Positions 47,379 through 56,128 of a DNA stretch of 64,000 nt are shown here, in pieces. The stretch comes from Trueperaceae bacterium (GTDB taxonomy: Bacteria; Deinococcota; Deinococci; Deinococcales; Trueperaceae). Below the pieces are notes generated by a model. That model had not been told where the DNA came from. It was given only the letters and a program-made list of their open reading frames with translations, and ran no database searches. The position numbers were made by a program, and so were the translations under genes. The stretch covers positions 62,001-126,000 of the forward strand of contig JAMLIB010000005.1 in the NCBI GenBank assembly GCA_023954415.1, read 5' to 3'. Each line of letters opens with the position of its first letter. The first letter of the stretch is position 1.

Positions 47379-48803
47379 ATGAGCAGCAACCTACTCAAGA
47401 AGGTCTACAGCGAGGTCAGCTACGTTTCCGGGCCGCTCCTGTTCCTCCAGAACGCGCCCGACCTCTCCTACAACGCCATCGTCCAGATCAAGGACGGGGC
47501 GGGGCGCGTGCGCGGCGGTCAGGTCATCGAGGTGTCGAAGGACTACACGGTCCTCCAGGTCTTCGAGGAGACCTCGGGCATCGACCTCTCCAGCACCACG
47601 GTCAGCCTCGTGGACAACGTCGCCCGCCTCGGCGTGGCGCGCGAGATGATCGGCCGCCGCTTCAACGGCGCCGGCGAGCCCATCGACGGCCTGCCCCCCG
47701 TCGTGGCCGACAAGCGCCTCCCCATCGGCGGCGCGCCCATCAACCCGGTGGCGCGTCAGAAGCCCGAGGAGTTCATCCAGACCGGCATCTCTACGATCGA
47801 CACGCTGATCAGCCTCGTCAGGGGCCAGAAGCTCCCGATCTTCTCCGGCTCGGGCCTCCCGGCCAACGAACTGGCCGCGCAGATCGCGCGCCAGGCGACG
47901 GTGATCGGCGAGGACACGGAGTTCGCCGTCGTGTTCGCGGCCATGGGCGTCACGCAGCGCGAGCTGACGTTCTTCACGCAGGAGTTCGAGCGCACCGGCG
48001 CCCTCGCGCGCTCCGTGCTCTTCCTCAACAAGGCCGACGACCCCGCCGTCGAGCGGCTCCTCACGCCGAAGATGGCCCTCACGGCCGCCGAGTACCTCGC
48101 GTTCGAGCTGGGCTACCACGTGCTCGTCATCCTCACGGACATGACGAACTACTGCGAGGCCCTGCGCGAGATCGGCGGCGCCCGCGAAGAGATCCCCGGC
48201 CGCCGCGGCTACCCCGGCTACATGTACACCGACCTTGCGTCCATCTACGAGCGCGCGGGCGTGGTCGAGGGGCTCAAGGGCTCCATCACCCAGCTCCCGA
48301 TCCTCACGATGCCCGATGACGACGTCACGCACCCCATCCCCGACCTGACCGGCTACATCACGGAAGGTCAGATCTACCTGGCGCGCGCGCTGCACAACAA
48401 GGGCGTCTACCCGCCCATCAACCCCGGTCCGTCCCTCTCGCGCCTCATGAACAACGGTATCGGCGAGGGCAAGACGCGCAAGGACCACAAGAACGTGGCC
48501 GACCAGCTCCAGGCCGCGTACGCCAACGGCCTCGACCTCAGGCGCCTCGTCGCCATCACGGGCGAGGACGCCCTCTCCGAGAACGACAAGCTCTACCTCA
48601 AGTTCGCGGACGAGTTCGAGCGCCACTTCGTGAACCAGGGCAGCGCCGACCGCTCCGTCGAGGAGTCGCTGTCGATCGCGTGGGCCATCCTGTCGCAACT
48701 GCCGAAGAGCGAGCTCACCAGGCTCTCCAACGACCAGATCGACAAGTACTACGGTGCCAAGATGGACGAGCTCTGGGGCGCCATCCGTCAAGACCGGCTC
48801 TAG
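47379..48803 (+). CDS. atpB: V/A-type ATPase regulatory subunit B
   Basis: A 474-residue non-catalytic head subunit with no functional Walker A, as in the family ([20 protein letters not shown]). It supplies the arginine finger from the [14 protein letters not shown] region. GGAGAG lies just before the ATG, 13 bp after subunit A. Confidence 0.98.
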
Positions 48804-48813
48804 GGAGTAGGCC

Positions 48814-49446
48814 ATGGCAGAGAACATCGCCCCGACCAGATCGAACCTCCTCCAGAGGCGCGACCAGGTCAAGCTCGCCATCCGCGGCGCCGACCTGCTG
48901 AAGCGTAAGCGTGACGCCCTGGTCGGCGAGTTCTTCGCGCTCGTCAAGTCCTCCCTCGAGGCGCGGCGCGAGCTCTCGCGAGCGAGCCGCGACGCGTACT
49001 TCGCCCTCTTCCTCGCCAACGCCTGGGACGGCCCAGAGGCCGTCGGGAGCCTGGCGCTCGCCGAGGAGCGCACCCTCGAGATCGGGCTGAAGATGGAGAA
49101 CATCTTCGGCGTCAAGGTCCCGCAGGTGCAGCCGCCCACGTTCGACGACGCCCTGCCGTTCTCGCCCGTCGGCGCCGGCGCCTCCACCCTGGAGGCCGCC
49201 AGGCAGTTCCGCAAGCTCGTAGAGGCCATCACCAAGGTGGCCGCCACCGAGACGAGGCTGCGGCGCATCGGCGAGGAGATCAAGAAGACGAACCGGCGCG
49301 TCAACGCGCTGGAGCAGCTCGTGATCCCGGGCATCAACTACGAGATCAGGAGCATCCGCAGCGTCCTCGACCAGCGGGCGCTCGAGGAAGTGACGACGCT
49401 CAAGCGCATCAAGGCCAAGCTGGAGGCGCGCGAGAAGGCCGGTTGA
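48814..49446 (+). CDS. atpD: V/A-type ATPase central shaft subunit D
   Basis: The 210-residue rotor shaft, two long helices in a coiled coil: PTRSNLLQRRDQVKLAIRGADLLKRKRDAL at the start and RVNALEQLVIPGINYEIRSIRSVLDQRALEE near the end. It is the last gene of the operon, followed by a hairpin. Confidence 0.95.
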   Translation: MAENIAPTRSNLLQRRDQVKLAIRGADLLKRKRDALVGEFFALVKSSLEARRELSRASRDAYFALFLANAWDGPEAVGSLALAEERTLEIGLKMENIFGVKVPQVQPPTFDDALPFSPVGAGASTLEAARQFRKLVEAITKVAATETRLRRIGEEIKKTNRRVNALEQLVIPGINYEIRSIRSVLDQRALEEVTTLKRIKAKLEAREKAG

Positions 49447-49747: not shown

Positions 49748-50773
49748 ATGACCCGATACTTCCGGTTCCTCGTAGCGCTGGCTCTAGTCGTTAGTGCCGG
49801 CACCGTATTCGCTCAAGGCCGACTCCAGGCCATCAAGGACCGCGGCGAGCTCCGCTGCGGCGTCAACGCCAACCTCCCGGGCTTCGGCGTTCCCGACGCC
49901 TCCGGCGCCTACACGGGCTTCGACATCGATTTCTGCAAGGCGATCGCGGCCGCCGTCTTCGGCGACGCCTCCAAGGTCGTCTACCGTCCCCTGACGGCCG
50001 GCGAGCGCCCCACGGCCCTCCAGTCCGGCGAGATCGACGTCCTCATCCGCAACACCACCCGCACCAGCATCCGCGAGACCGACTGGGGCGCGAACTTCGC
50101 CCCCACCACGTACTACGACGGCCAGGGCTTCATGGTGCGCAAGGACTCCGGCATCAACAGCCTGCGCGACTTCGAGGGCCGCTCCATCTGCGTGCAGTCC
50201 GGCACCACGACGGAGACGAACCTCGGCACCACGCTCGCCGGCCTCGGCGTTCAGTTCACTCCGGTCATCTTCGAGACGGCGCCCGTGCTGATAGCCGCCT
50301 ACGACGACGGCCAGTGCGACGGTTGGACGACGGACGGCTCCGGCCTCGTCTCCTACCAGACCCAGCTCCGCGTACCAAGCGACCACAAGATCCTCCCGGT
50401 CATCATCTCCAAGGAACCGCTCGGCCCCGCCGTCCTGCACGGTGACGACCAGTGGTACGACGTCGTCTCCTGGACCGTCTACGCCCTGTTCGACGCCGAA
50501 GAGTACGGCGTGACGCAGGCGAACGTCGACGACATGCTCCTCAACGCCGCCGACCCGCAGGTGAAGCGCCTCCTCGGCGCCCCCGGCTCCGAGTCCTACG
50601 TCGAAGCCTTCGGCCTCAGCGCCGACGCCTTCTACCAGGTGATCAAGGCGGTCGGCAACTACGGCGAGATCTTCGATCGCAACCTTGGCTCCGGCTCCGT
50701 GTTCGGCCTCGAGCGCGGCATCAACGCCCAGTACTACGACGGCGGCCTCATCTACGGGTACCCGTTCAACTGA
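49748..50773 (+). CDS. general L-amino acid ABC transporter substrate-binding protein (AapJ-like)
   Basis: A 341-residue family 3 solute-binding protein. The signal peptide (about 1-22, ending VFAQ) is followed by LQAIKDRGELRCGVNANLPGFGVPD, then FDIDFCKAIAAAVFGD, and DQWYDVVSWTVYALFDAEEYG, which are typical of AapJ/BztA. It delivers a broad range of L-amino acids to the permeases encoded downstream. ATG 49748 follows AGGAAGGTGA. A six-codon frame (49723-49743) just upstream is noted but not called. Confidence 0.93.
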   Translation: MTRYFRFLVALALVVSAGTVFAQGRLQAIKDRGELRCGVNANLPGFGVPDASGAYTGFDIDFCKAIAAAVFGDASKVVYRPLTAGERPTALQSGEIDVLIRNTTRTSIRETDWGANFAPTTYYDGQGFMVRKDSGINSLRDFEGRSICVQSGTTTETNLGTTLAGLGVQFTPVIFETAPVLIAAYDDGQCDGWTTDGSGLVSYQTQLRVPSDHKILPVIISKEPLGPAVLHGDDQWYDVVSWTVYALFDAEEYGVTQANVDDMLLNAADPQVKRLLGAPGSESYVEAFGLSADAFYQVIKAVGNYGEIFDRNLGSGSVFGLERGINAQYYDGGLIYGYPFN

Positions 50774-50937: not shown

Positions 50938-52752
50938 ATGCAGCCAGGTAAGCCGAGCGTGAGCGCGTCGACGGCCGTCGTGCCTTTCTGGCGCAACGTC
51001 AAGATCATCGGCGTTATCGCGCAGTTCGTGTTCGTCATCGCGCTGGTCGCGGGCGTCGGTATCCTCGTCAACAACGTCGTCACGGCTTTGGCGAAGGCCA
51101 ACCTGCCGGCCGACTTCTCTTTCCTCGGCAAGCCGGCCGGCATCCCCATCGCCGAGCGGGCCGTCCCGTACCAGGTGACCGACACCTACGCCCGGGCCCT
51201 TCTCATCGGGTTCCTCAACACGCTCAAGGTCGCCATCGTCGGGGTGGTCCTGGCCACGGTCATCGGCGTCCTCATGGGCGTCATGCGTTTATCTAGCAAC
51301 TGGCTCGTCCGGACCATGGCGAGCGTATATGTGGAAGTCTTGCGCAACATCCCGCTCGCCGTACAGATCGTCTTCTGGTACTCCGCGGTGCTGCTCCCGT
51401 TCCCGCCGCGCATCAGCGATCCCATAGCGCTGCCCGGCGGTTTGATCATGTCCAACGTCGGCTTGGCCTTCCCGTTCCTGTACCCCACCTACCGGTTCGG
51501 AGTATGGGTGCCGTACCTGGTCGCGGCCGCGGTGCTCGCCGGCGTCGCGTGGTGGTGGCGTAGGCGGGCGCTCGCCAAGGCCGACAGGGTCGGAAGCGTT
51601 TGGCCGTTCCCGGTCGTCACGTTCCTGGTGGTCGCCGGCGTCGGCCTCGGCCTCTCGTACGTAGGGCGCTCCGTTCCGAGCGACCTCACGTTCACGTTCG
51701 AGGCCGACCGCGGCAGAGGCACGACGGCGTTCGTGGCCGACGGCAAGTCGCGGCCCGCGGCCTTCGTACCCGTCGCCATCGAGATCGAGAAGGCCAGCCT
51801 CACCGTCAGCAGCCAGAACCTCGTCGAGTCCCGTCAGGACGTCAGGGGCAGCGTGCGGTTCCCGCTCATGAGCGAGAACGAGGCGGACGCCTTCGAGTTC
51901 GCCTTCGCGGACGCCGAGGCCGCCGAGGAACGCGGCTTACAGCTCAGCTTCGACAAGTACCCGTCGGTCGCTACGATCTACGTCGACGGCAACGGCAACG
52001 GCAGACTCGATGCCGACGAGGACGTCGACCCGGCGACGAACCGGGGCTACGGCGGGGTGGACGTCGTCATGACGGTCACGAACTTCCGGCGTACCCTCGT
52101 GTCCGACCGCGATGGTCAGGTTCGCACGCCCACCTTCAAGCACGCCGATGACGTGGCCGCCGCGGCGGTGGAGGAGAGCGCCGCGCCGCGGGCCGGCACG
52201 CGCTTCTCCGCCTTCGGGCAGGCCGCGACGGCCGCGGTCTCGGAATCCGCGCTCACGGCCAAGACCGAGATCCAACCTGTCGGCGCCTTGGTCTTCAGCC
52301 GCGCTTACGTGCCCGTCTCCAACTACGAGGGCGGCATGCGCCTGACGGTCAACTATCTGGCGCTGCTGCTCGCGTTGGTCGTCTACACCTCGGCGTTCAT
52401 CGCGGAGATCGTGCGCGGCGGCATCCTGGCAGTGCCCAAGGGCCAGCGGGAGGCTGCGCGGGCCATCGGTCTCTCCGGCACGCAGACGTTCTCCCTCATC
52501 ATCTTCCCCCAGGCCATGCGGATCGTCCTCCCCCCGATGATCAGCCAGTACCTCAACCTCACGAAGAACTCGTCGCTCGCATCGCTCGCCGGGTACGCGG
52601 AACTGTTCGTCATCGCCAGCGTGGTCAGCAACCAGACGGGCGCCGCAATCCCGATCGCCCTGCTGCTCATCGGCTCTTATCTCGTCATCAGCCTCGCGTT
52701 CTCGGTGGTCCTCAACCAGGTGAACGCGCGGTTGGCACTAGTGGAGCGTTGA
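50938..52752 (+). CDS. amino acid ABC permease (AapQ-like) with large EF-hand-containing insertion
   Basis: This 604-residue inner-membrane permease is about 200 residues longer than usual AapQ proteins. Helices occur at about 20-45, 85-115, 130-155, 190-210 and 220-242. The C-terminal permease core starts near residue 469 with YLALLLALVVYTSAFIAEIVRGG and the EAA loop KGQREAARAIGLSGTQTFSLIIFPQAM. Between about 245 and 465 is a hydrophilic insertion, predicted outside the membrane from the position of the EAA loop. It contains DGNGNGRLDADE at 350-361, a complete EF-hand loop with ligands at positions 1, 3, 5, 9 and 12. Confidence 0.9.
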   Translation: MQPGKPSVSASTAVVPFWRNVKIIGVIAQFVFVIALVAGVGILVNNVVTALAKANLPADFSFLGKPAGIPIAERAVPYQVTDTYARALLIGFLNTLKVAIVGVVLATVIGVLMGVMRLSSNWLVRTMASVYVEVLRNIPLAVQIVFWYSAVLLPFPPRISDPIALPGGLIMSNVGLAFPFLYPTYRFGVWVPYLVAAAVLAGVAWWWRRRALAKADRVGSVWPFPVVTFLVVAGVGLGLSYVGRSVPSDLTFTFEADRGRGTTAFVADGKSRPAAFVPVAIEIEKASLTVSSQNLVESRQDVRGSVRFPLMSENEADAFEFAFADAEAAEERGLQLSFDKYPSVATIYVDGNGNGRLDADEDVDPATNRGYGGVDVVMTVTNFRRTLVSDRDGQVRTPTFKHADDVAAAAVEESAAPRAGTRFSAFGQAATAAVSESALTAKTEIQPVGALVFSRAYVPVSNYEGGMRLTVNYLALLLALVVYTSAFIAEIVRGGILAVPKGQREAARAIGLSGTQTFSLIIFPQAMRIVLPPMISQYLNLTKNSSLASLAGYAELFVIASVVSNQTGAAIPIALLLIGSYLVISLAFSVVLNQVNARLALVER

Positions 52753-52753
52753 C

Positions 52754-53959
52754 ATGATCCAGCCGCGCCCCGCCCCCGTGAAGGCTCACGGCTTCAGGTT
52801 CTGGCTGCGTAAGAACCTCTTCAACGGTCCGTTCAACACCGTGCTGACGTTCGTGGCGGCGGTAGTGGTGGCCTGGTCGCTATACAACCTTGCCAACTTC
52901 GTCTTCGTCGAAGGCTCATGGGGACAGGTCTGGCGCAACATGCGGCTCTTCGGCGTCTACCGCTACCCCCCCGAGTACCTCTGGCGCCCGCTCCTCGCCC
53001 TCGGCATCATGTTGGGCCTGATGGGAGTCATGGCCGGCGCCGGCGGCCGGAAGTCGATCGTGGCGGGCGCGTTCCTGCCGATCCAGGGCTTCGTCGCCGT
53101 CGTGTCGGTCGTCGCCATCCTGTTCTGGCCCTCCGTGCGCTTCCTCTGGCCCGGCGCGCTCGCCCTCGGCTTCCTCGGCTACTTCATCGGCAGCCGCTGG
53201 CCGCGCTCCGTCAAGTACCTGCCCTGGGGTTGGGGCGCCTGGCTCGTCGTCGGCTACCTGCTCCTCAGCGGCCTGACGACCGGCGGCACGCTCGGCAAGG
53301 TGCCCGTGCGCGACTGGGGCGGCTTCCTCCTCACCCTCATCCTGTTCACGGGCATCATCCCGAGCTTCCCGATCGGCATCGCTCTGGCGCTCGGCCGCAA
53401 CAGCAAGCTGCCCGCCATCAAGTACTTCTGCATCGGCTTCATCGAGGTAGTGCGCGGGGCGCCGCTCATCATGTGGCTCTTCATCGCCTCGCTGCTCTTA
53501 CCCCTCATCCTCAACGTCGACGCGAACTCCCTGCCCGCCATCATGCGGGCCTACGTGGCCATCACGCTCTTCTCGGCCGCGTACATGGCGGAGAACGTCC
53601 GCGGCGGGCTCCAGGCCGTACCGCGCGGTCAGGGCGAGGCGGCCCGCGCTCTCGGCCTCTCCGCGTGGCAGACGACCCTGCTCATCGTGCTGCCGCAGGC
53701 GCTGCGAGCCGTCATCCCCGCCATCGTCGGGCAGGCGATCGGCCTGTTCAAGGACACGTCGCTCGTCTTCATCGTCGGCCTGGTGGACTTCTTCAAGGTC
53801 GGCGACATCGTGTCCGTCCAGCCCGAGGCGCTGCTCGTCACGGGCGGCGTCAAGCTCGAGGTCTTCCTCTTCATCGCCGTGATCTACTTCTTCTTCGCCT
53901 ACCGGATGTCCATCGCCAGCCGGCAACTGGAGAAGCGCCTGGGGGTGGGGGAGAGATGA
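52754..53959 (+). CDS. amino acid ABC permease (AapM-like)
   Basis: The second permease, 401 residues, of the His/Glu/Gln family with about eight helices. The EAA loop is [29 protein letters not shown], and [15 protein letters not shown] is characteristic of AapM/BztC. It starts 1 bp after the AapQ-like gene. Unlike that partner it has no large insertion. Confidence 0.93.
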
Positions 53960-53997
53960 GCCGTACCACCGGCTTCAGCTACGGAGGTTACACGTGA
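53956..53997 (+). CDS. possible 13-codon cistron bridging aapM- and aapP-like genes
   Basis: ATG 53956 overlaps the upstream stop as ATGA and opens a 13-codon frame ([13 protein letters not shown]). Its TGA overlaps the GTG of the ATPase gene as GTGA. The frame contains the GGAGG used for the next start. It might carry ribosomes across the 34-bp gap; it may equally be chance. Confidence 0.35.
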
Positions 53998-54779
53998 GTG
54001 ACGTGGCCAGCGCGCCCGCCCCTGTCAGAGCCGACGCCCCGCCGACGGGCCAGCGGATCATCGAGATCGAGGGCCTCAACAAGTGGTACGGGGAGTTCCA
54101 CGTCCTGCGCGACATCAACCTGTCCGTCAACCGGGGCGAGGTCGTCGTCGTCATCGGGCCGTCCGGTTCGGGCAAGTCGACGCTCATCCGGTGCATCAAC
54201 CGCCTCGAGGAGCACCAGCAGGGCAAGATCGTCGTCGACGGCGTCGAACTGACCGACGACGTGCGCGCGATCGACCAGATCAGGCGCGAGACCGGCATGG
54301 TGTTCCAGTCGTTCAACCTCTTCCCGCACCTAACGGTGCTCGACAACATCACGCTCGCCCCGACGCGCGTGCGCAAGTGGAAGAAGTCGAAGGCCGAGGA
54401 GCGCGCCCGCTTCTTCCTCGAGAAGGTCGGCATCCCCGAGCAGGCGCACAAGTACCCGGGCCAGCTGTCCGGCGGGCAGCAGCAGCGCGTGGCCATCGCG
54501 CGCTCGCTCACGATGGAGCCGAAGGTCATGCTCTTCGACGAGCCGACGAGCGCCCTCGACCCCGAGGTCATCGGCGAGGTGCTGCAAGTGATGGTCAACC
54601 TCGCCAAGGAAGGCATGACCATGGTCGTGGTCACCCACGAGATGGGGTTCGCACGCGAGGTCGGCGACAGGGTCGTCTTCATGGACGCCGGTCAGATCGT
54701 GGAGGTCGGCAGCCCCGAACACTTCTTCACGAACCCGAAGGAGGCGCGCACGCGCTCCTTCCTGTCCAAGATCCTGTGA
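53994..54779 (+). CDS. amino acid ABC transporter ATP-binding protein (AapP-like)
   Basis: The 261-residue ATPase of the importer. After a Pro/Ala-rich start the domain has Walker [11 protein letters not shown] (about 55-64), Q-loop [17 protein letters not shown], signature [15 protein letters not shown], Walker [15 protein letters not shown] and H-loop [10 protein letters not shown], all as in polar amino acid transporters (GlnQ/HisP type). GTG 53994 has GGAGG 7 nt upstream. Confidence 0.95.
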
Positions 54780-54914: not shown

Positions 54915-54962
54915 TAGACTAGCGGCATGAGCGAGAGCTCCTCCCCGAGGGAAGGCATATGA
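54915..54962 (+). CDS. leaderless-type promoter and 11-codon mini-cistron coupled to pilT
   Basis: TAGACT (54915-54920) is followed after exactly 6 nt by ATG 54927. The frame has 11 codons (MSESSSPREGI) and its TGA (54960-54962) overlaps the pilT ATG as ATGA. The ORF itself is 54927-54962. TAGACT is also the -10 box of recF and sufS, which supports the promoter; expression of the peptide is untested. Confidence 0.45.
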
Positions 54963-56128
54963 GCGACGCGGCCGGCGGTCGTGGCATAAGGATCGCGGAC
55001 GTGCTGCGCAACATCGTCGCCAAGGGCGCGTCCGACATCCACCTGCAGGCGGGGGCGCCGCCCTACATGCGCGTGGACGGCGAGCTGTACCCGTTCGAGG
55101 GCGTGCCGACGCTGACGCCTGAGCAGACGGAGCAGATCGCCCTCGCGATGATGAGCGAGTCGCAGCGCGAGGTCTTCAGACATAGGCACGAGGTCGACTT
55201 CGCGTTCACCATCCCGAACATCGCCCGCTTCCGCTGCAACGTGTTGCGCCAGCGCGGCTCCGTCGGGGTCGTGATGCGCGTCATCCGCGACGCGATCCCG
55301 AGCTTCGAGTCGCTCGGCCTCCCGACCGGCGTCGTCACGGAGCTCGTCAGCCAGCCGCGCGGCCTAGTCCTCGTCACAGGTCCGACGGGCTCTGGGAAGA
55401 CGACGACGCTGGCCGCGATGATCGACTTCATCAACCGGCGCTTCGCTCGCAACATCATCACGATCGAGGACCCGATCGAGATCCTCCACCGGAACCAGAA
55501 GAGCCTGGTCATCCAGCGCGAGATCGGCCTCGACACGGCAGACTTCGTCGGTGCCCTCAAGTTCGCCATGCGCCAAGACCCGGACGTGATCATGGTCGGC
55601 GAGATGCGCGACAAGGAGACGGTCGAGGCGGCCATCTCGGCGGCCCAGACGGGCCACCTCGTGTTCAGCACGCTGCACACCCTCGACGCCATCCGCACCG
55701 TGAACCGTATCATCGACTTCTTCCCGCCGCACGAGCGCGACCAGATCCGCATCCTGCTGGCGGAGTCGCTCCTCGGGATCTTCAGTCAGCGCCTGCTGGC
55801 GCGAGCCGACGAGGGCGGCCGCGTGCTGGCGCTCGAACTGCTCATCAACACGCCCCTCATCCGCGACTACATCAAGGACGAGGAGAAGACGCCGCTCATC
55901 AAGGAAGCGCTCATGCAGGACAACCTGCGCGGCATGCAGACGTTCGACCAGCACCTCGTCGAGCTTTACCTGGCCGGGCGCATCACGATGGAGGACGCGA
56001 CCTTCACGGCCACCAGCCCGCACGAGTTCAGGCTCATGGTCACCCAGCGGCAAGGCGGCGTCGGCTCGGACGAGCTCCGCGACGTCACGGGCGCGGGCAT
56101 GCACCCTTCGCGGGGCGGTCTGCGCTGA
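54959..56128 (+). CDS. pilT: type IV pilus retraction ATPase PilT
   Basis: The 389-residue hexameric ATPase depolymerises type IV pili for twitching and DNA uptake. The N-terminal domain has GASDIHLQAGAPPYMRVDGEL; Walker A GPTGSGKTT is at 141-149; the Asp box is IITIEDPIE; the His box is AQTGHLVFSTLHT; and the PilT-specific AIRTVNRIIDFFPPHERDQIR supports PilT rather than PilB. The last ~30 residues are an unconserved tail. No other pilus genes are adjacent. Confidence 0.95.
   Translation: MSDAAGGRGIRIADVLRNIVAKGASDIHLQAGAPPYMRVDGELYPFEGVPTLTPEQTEQIALAMMSESQREVFRHRHEVDFAFTIPNIARFRCNVLRQRGSVGVVMRVIRDAIPSFESLGLPTGVVTELVSQPRGLVLVTGPTGSGKTTTLAAMIDFINRRFARNIITIEDPIEILHRNQKSLVIQREIGLDTADFVGALKFAMRQDPDVIMVGEMRDKETVEAAISAAQTGHLVFSTLHTLDAIRTVNRIIDFFPPHERDQIRILLAESLLGIFSQRLLARADEGGRVLALELLINTPLIRDYIKDEEKTPLIKEALMQDNLRGMQTFDQHLVELYLAGRITMEDATFTATSPHEFRLMVTQRQGGVGSDELRDVTGAGMHPSRGGLR

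Follow-up and report, generated by a model that had tools for sequence, protein, structure and literature searches.

A predicted extracytoplasmic beta-module with a conserved calcium-loop pattern inserted into the AapQ-type permease of Trueperaceae

What has been inserted into an amino-acid ABC permease of a Trueperaceae bacterium, on which side of the membrane does it lie, and what could it contribute there? The question arises from a 64,000-nucleotide stretch of contig JAMLIB010000005.1 (the window), in which the open reading frame at 50938-52752 on the plus strand encodes a 604-aa AapQ-type amino-acid ABC permease with an insertion. PF00528 (BPD_transp_1) scores 48.5 bits on this protein (cut-off, 26.4), which places it in that family, and HEQRo_perm_3TM (TIGR01726, amino-acid permease 3-TM domain) also matches above its cut-off. 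The presence of a substrate-binding protein gene upstream and of genes for a second permease and an ATPase downstream implies an aapJ-aapQ-aapM-aapP operon:

49748-50773, plus strand: AapJ-like soluble substrate-binding protein (SBP_bac_3, family 3; TIGR01096 below cut-off)
50938-52752, plus strand: AapQ-type permease (PF00528 BPD_transp_1, E=1.1e-12; homologues)
52754-53959, plus strand: AapM-like partner permease, without insertion (PF00528, E=2.4e-16)
53994-54779, plus strand: AapP-like ATPase (ABC_tran, E=2.1e-40; GlnQ-like)

The order aapJ-Q-M-P is kept in relatives whose contigs span the operon, and amino-acid transport is the putative function of the importer, judged by family and operon membership. 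The N-terminus of AapJ has a signal peptide without a lipobox cysteine. AapM frames of 646-655 aa in two relatives (L007 and L008) represent read-through upstream of the likely start and contain no second insertion. Upstream of the operon lie two frames (47379-49446) that we take, from sequence recognition, to resemble V/A-type ATPase subunits B and D, and the gene that follows it (54959-56128), recognized in the same way, presumably encodes a PilT/type II secretion-type ATPase.

AapQ-like permeases have 397 aa in Rhizobium leguminosarum and 398 aa in Paracoccus. The interval from residue 240, at the end of a helix, to the conserved GG (465-466) spans 198-253 residues in 25 Trueperaceae AapQs and 19 residues (23 in one) in 12 insert-free AapQs, seven of them from Deinococcota and five from Proteobacteria. 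Since the usual linker of the insert-free AapQ L028, QPLEYGVPIRGNFGVNGG, matches residues 449-466 (GALVFSRAYVPVSNYEGG) in the alignment, the true insertion extends from about residue 243 to 448. The original prediction, an insertion of about 220 residues at 245-465 of an AapQ-like permease, was thus right about the insertion, and about its host, as the aapJQMP operon and PF00528 confirm, but its boundaries had to be tightened. An assembly artefact, a frameshift or a recent insertion was ruled out by the open frame in 27 Trueperaceae genomes. The two features that define the position of the insert in the permease are:

51664-52281, plus strand: insertion, residues ~243-448 (about 205 extra), not in ordinary AapQ (alignment)
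52414-52482, plus strand: EAA (coupling) loop, residues 493-515, cytoplasmic (invariant residues; family knowledge)

In type I importers the EAA loop lies on the cytoplasmic side, and in this protein its residues R493, G502, Q503, E505, A506 and G511 are invariant. In the AlphaFold2 model, helices are predicted at residues 21-53, 84-117, 122-152 (broken), 187-215 and 223-240, followed by the insert and then by a helix at 471-497, which runs into the EAA loop. The loop at residues 206-223, preceding the helix that leads to the insert, contains five basic residues and one acidic residue. This charge suits the cytoplasmic side, and the helix after the insert enters the cytoplasmic EAA loop; the insert is therefore placed on the extracytoplasmic side. 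Helix order, EAA loop and the positive cytoplasmic-side loop all bear out the earlier claim that it lies outside the membrane.

The AlphaFold2 model of the full protein has block-mean pLDDT values of 82-93 over residues 241-400, and the insert modelled alone reaches a mean pLDDT of 81.6 with nearly the same secondary structure as in the full protein. Two parts of the insert can be distinguished, the second of which is about 30 residues shorter in three relatives (L025-L027):

51670-52137, plus strand: folded all-beta part, residues ~245-400, two SdrD_B-like units (AlphaFold2; hhalign)
52138-52260, plus strand: variable Ala-rich, mostly disordered linker, residues ~401-441 (pLDDT <50 at 412-435)

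The commonest Pfam match of the insert is SdrD_B (PF17210), found in 10 of 27 members at E values up to 10 (best 0.00097), with a best printed score of 19.1 bits, below the curated cut-off of 29.7 bits. Profile comparison with an SdrD_B alignment, built from 18 domains of one related Deinococcota genome, gave an hhalign score of 44.3 over 47 columns for the second unit (at most 15.4 in 100 column shuffles) and of 40.3 over 29 columns for the first (best shuffle, 21.3), which indicates a remote sequence relation to SdrD_B domains. In a structural second look, CnaB-type pilins and adhesins were aligned with Z values of about 3-4.5 over 59-72 residues, a similarity that may reflect only a common arrangement. 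Foldseek found no significant match for the insert alone in the PDB, and only ABC permeases and noise for the full model. Searching PDB sequences with the profile of the insert returned only chance matches to protein A, and NCBIfam models gave only a marginal 'sunset' match to the insert, in three members. Because the SdrD_B scores are below the cut-off, the Foldseek search is blank and the Z values are low, we refer to the insert as SdrD_B-like and do not file it as a member of that family. Together, the profiles and the model support two tandem SdrD_B-like beta units with putative calcium loops. A fused substrate-binding domain in the style of OpuA or GlnPQ was also considered and rejected, as the insert contains no SBP-type match. 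As a separate observation, two very long open frames of 4191 and 6346 aa in a genome of another Deinococcota family (L084 and L085 on C4 and C68 of G040, family f5) contain many SdrD_B repeats.

Each unit has one loop region of the calcium-binding type:

51721-51750, plus strand: degenerate first calcium loop TTAFVADGKS, residues 262-271 (alignment)
51985-52020, plus strand: second calcium loop DGNGNGRLDADE, residues 350-361 (directly after strand 344-349)

In the second loop, the putative ligands D350, N352, N354, R356 (main chain), D358 and E361 follow the spacing 1, 3, 5, 7, 9, 12. Across the 27 homologues, position 1 is always Asp, position 3 Asn or Asp, position 5 Asn, Asp or Ser, and position 12 Glu (27/27 each); position 6 is Gly in 24, and every homologue has a hydrophobic or aromatic residue at position 8. 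The window's loop departs slightly from the others: where most have Arg at position 2 it has Gly, and where the other 26 have Gly at position 11 it has Asp. Shuffling the insert yielded the EF-loop pattern by chance in 12 of 20,000 trials. Twenty of 27 relatives have a first loop of the DxDGDG type behind an RGRGTVF strand; L015 and every one of the six genomes of the window's genus have a degenerate one. The two loop regions are alike (hhalign score 37.2 across 23 columns, against at most 18.3 in 100 column shuffles). The EF-hand loop of the original prediction is therefore upheld as a conserved 12-residue ligand pattern and not as a helix-loop-helix domain: AlphaFold2 places strand 344-349 before the loop and strand 375-388 after it, with no flanking helices, so an EF-hand domain was rejected, and Pfam EF-hand models gave no credible match among insert members (one at E = 8.8). 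In the B domains of SdrD, an EF-hand-like calcium site lies directly behind the A strand, in the A-B loop (PMC13174682), and the melting temperature of SdrE is raised by calcium (PMC3775735). By analogy with the Sdr B repeats, we infer that the second loop would bind Ca2+ constitutively and stiffen the module.

A search of 111 genomes of the phylum with the insert profile revealed 27 strong matches, none of them outside a single family, and every named relative with the insert is a Trueperaceae, Truepera or 'Deinococci' metagenome bin. No insert match was found in 12 listed genomes of the family; those of the 12 that were also searched with the full protein contained weaker permease matches (best E 1e-18 to 1e-3) or none. 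Among the genomes searched, the insert thus appears, by sequence matching, only in Trueperaceae/Deinococci. A scan of named genomes with two short peptide patterns recovered eight loci against 27 already known, so the insert may also occur outside the family or the Deinococcota. Comparison of one representative insert (L008) with 72,556 plasmids gave no match, and plasmid-borne spread was rejected. In a phylogeny built on the permease core, the 25 proteins with the insert are monophyletic (100/99 support; recovered in 100% of 200 bootstrap trees), and a single gain therefore explains the data. One genome (G010) contains two aap systems, one with an insert-bearing AapQ (L022, C31) and the other with an insert-free AapQ (L068, C20). 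The literature searched contained no description of this insertion. As for the objection foreseen at the outset, a common insertion with poorly conserved ligands, the insertion is indeed common within one family, but its ligands are strongly conserved.

Given these data, we consider it about an even call that the insert is a calcium-rigidified periplasmic module that aids the docking of AapJ, stabilizes the AapQ-AapM pair, or both, a reading based on analogy. According to this model, two SdrD_B/CnaB-like beta-modules would have entered AapQ of Trueperaceae as a pair in a single event, in the short periplasmic loop that connects to the helix preceding the EAA loop. Constitutive binding of a single Ca2+ by the second A-B loop would stiffen the module, which could then stand beside the translocation path and assist the docking of freely diffusing AapJ, and/or hold AapQ and AapM together, in the manner of the MalF P2 loop. 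The solubility of AapJ makes a docking aid plausible. The divergence of the insert shows a partial correlation of 0.14-0.17 with that of AapJ (AapM and the AapQ core controlled) and of 0.45 with that of AapM; these values come from few data, carry no formal significance test, are not independent tests and are weak for docking. With such weak covariation with AapJ and so few data, docking is preferred on functional analogy only. Further points against the model are the low conservation of the insert, SdrD_B scores below the cut-off, the lack of a significant Foldseek match, and ordinary AapQs, including the second copy in one Trueperaceae genome, which work without the insert. The built-in docking domain proposed in the original prediction stays plausible, although the divergence of the insert hardly tracks AapJ beyond shared phylogeny.

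The same correlations bear on a possible, if somewhat unlikely, alternative, in which the calcium-rigidified module packs on AapM or on envelope components as a structural stabilizer or spacer and makes no contact with AapJ. It would account for the closer tracking of AapM (0.45) than of AapJ (0.17), non-independent as these tests are, and it agrees with the properties of Sdr proteins, in which each B motif contains a calcium loop, and calcium favours a compact, more stable protein (PMC3775735). It is rather improbable that the insert decorates AapQ in this lineage with little effect on function and persists through folding constraints alone. Consistent with such a decoration, conservation is lower in the insert than anywhere else in AapQ (mean 0.55 vs 0.74-0.79 in the core), its tail is disordered, and ordinary AapQs function without it. 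Nevertheless, it is kept in all 27 Trueperaceae orthologues found, and outside the calcium loop E297, P342, G370, G393 and R396 are invariant in the 27 homologues, which shows a constrained fold. The dN/dS of the insert in eight pairs (Nei-Gojobori) is 0.08-0.48, above that of the core in most pairs and well below 1; the insert is under purifying selection. A bolder possibility is a long shot: that adhesin-type calcium modules form a second built-in docking site for the soluble binding protein, whose calcium state would set the strength of transport, and so make up a calcium-dependent counterpart of MalF P2 that evolved independently in Trueperaceae. Least probable of all is the calcium-responsive uptake of the original prediction, in which reversible Ca2+ at the loop would switch transport: the invariant D1 and E12 ligands and the extracytoplasmic position would suit it, but the core fold of an SdrD B domain survives calcium depletion, which points to a mainly structural role of these loops (PMC13174682), the window's genus has only a degenerate loop 1, and the second loop follows a strand and offers no helix-loop-helix switch, which leaves the claim unsupported.

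The insert is real and conserved in the Trueperaceae lineage, is probably calcium-stabilized, and may aid docking or stabilize the permease pair. Its occurrence implies that an ABC importer permease gained a folded extracytoplasmic domain once, in one bacterial family, and this domain may derive from a kind of module that is elsewhere found in surface adhesins. The insert-bearing and insert-free aap systems of G010 represent a natural contrast for what insertions like MalF P2 add.

Compared with the AapQ/BztB permeases of the PAAT family (AapJQMP and BztABCD), the Trueperaceae protein has the same operon order, core TM segments and EAA loop, and belongs to the long variant with an extra TM pair, but contains about 205 extra periplasmic residues before the helix to the EAA loop, where ordinary members have 19-23. 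With EF-hand proteins it shares the 12-residue loop spacing and the ligand types; however, its loop has a strand before it and beta structure after it in place of flanking helices. The MalF P2 loop is likewise a large folded periplasmic insertion, carried by one of the two permeases of an importer with a soluble binding protein. MalF P2 precedes the permease core helices, whereas the Trueperaceae insert lies within the core, before the helix to the EAA loop, and no sequence relation between the two was seen. Contact of MalF P2 with MalE is attributed to Daus (2007, 2009) as relayed in PMC3150292. The closest likeness in the loop region is to the SdrD_B/CnaB B modules of Gram-positive adhesins and pilins, which share the order of a strand, a DxNxNGxxDxGE loop, a GV.V.L strand and a DxxG strand, but the predicted Trueperaceae module consists of two units set into a transporter loop instead of a surface repeat array.
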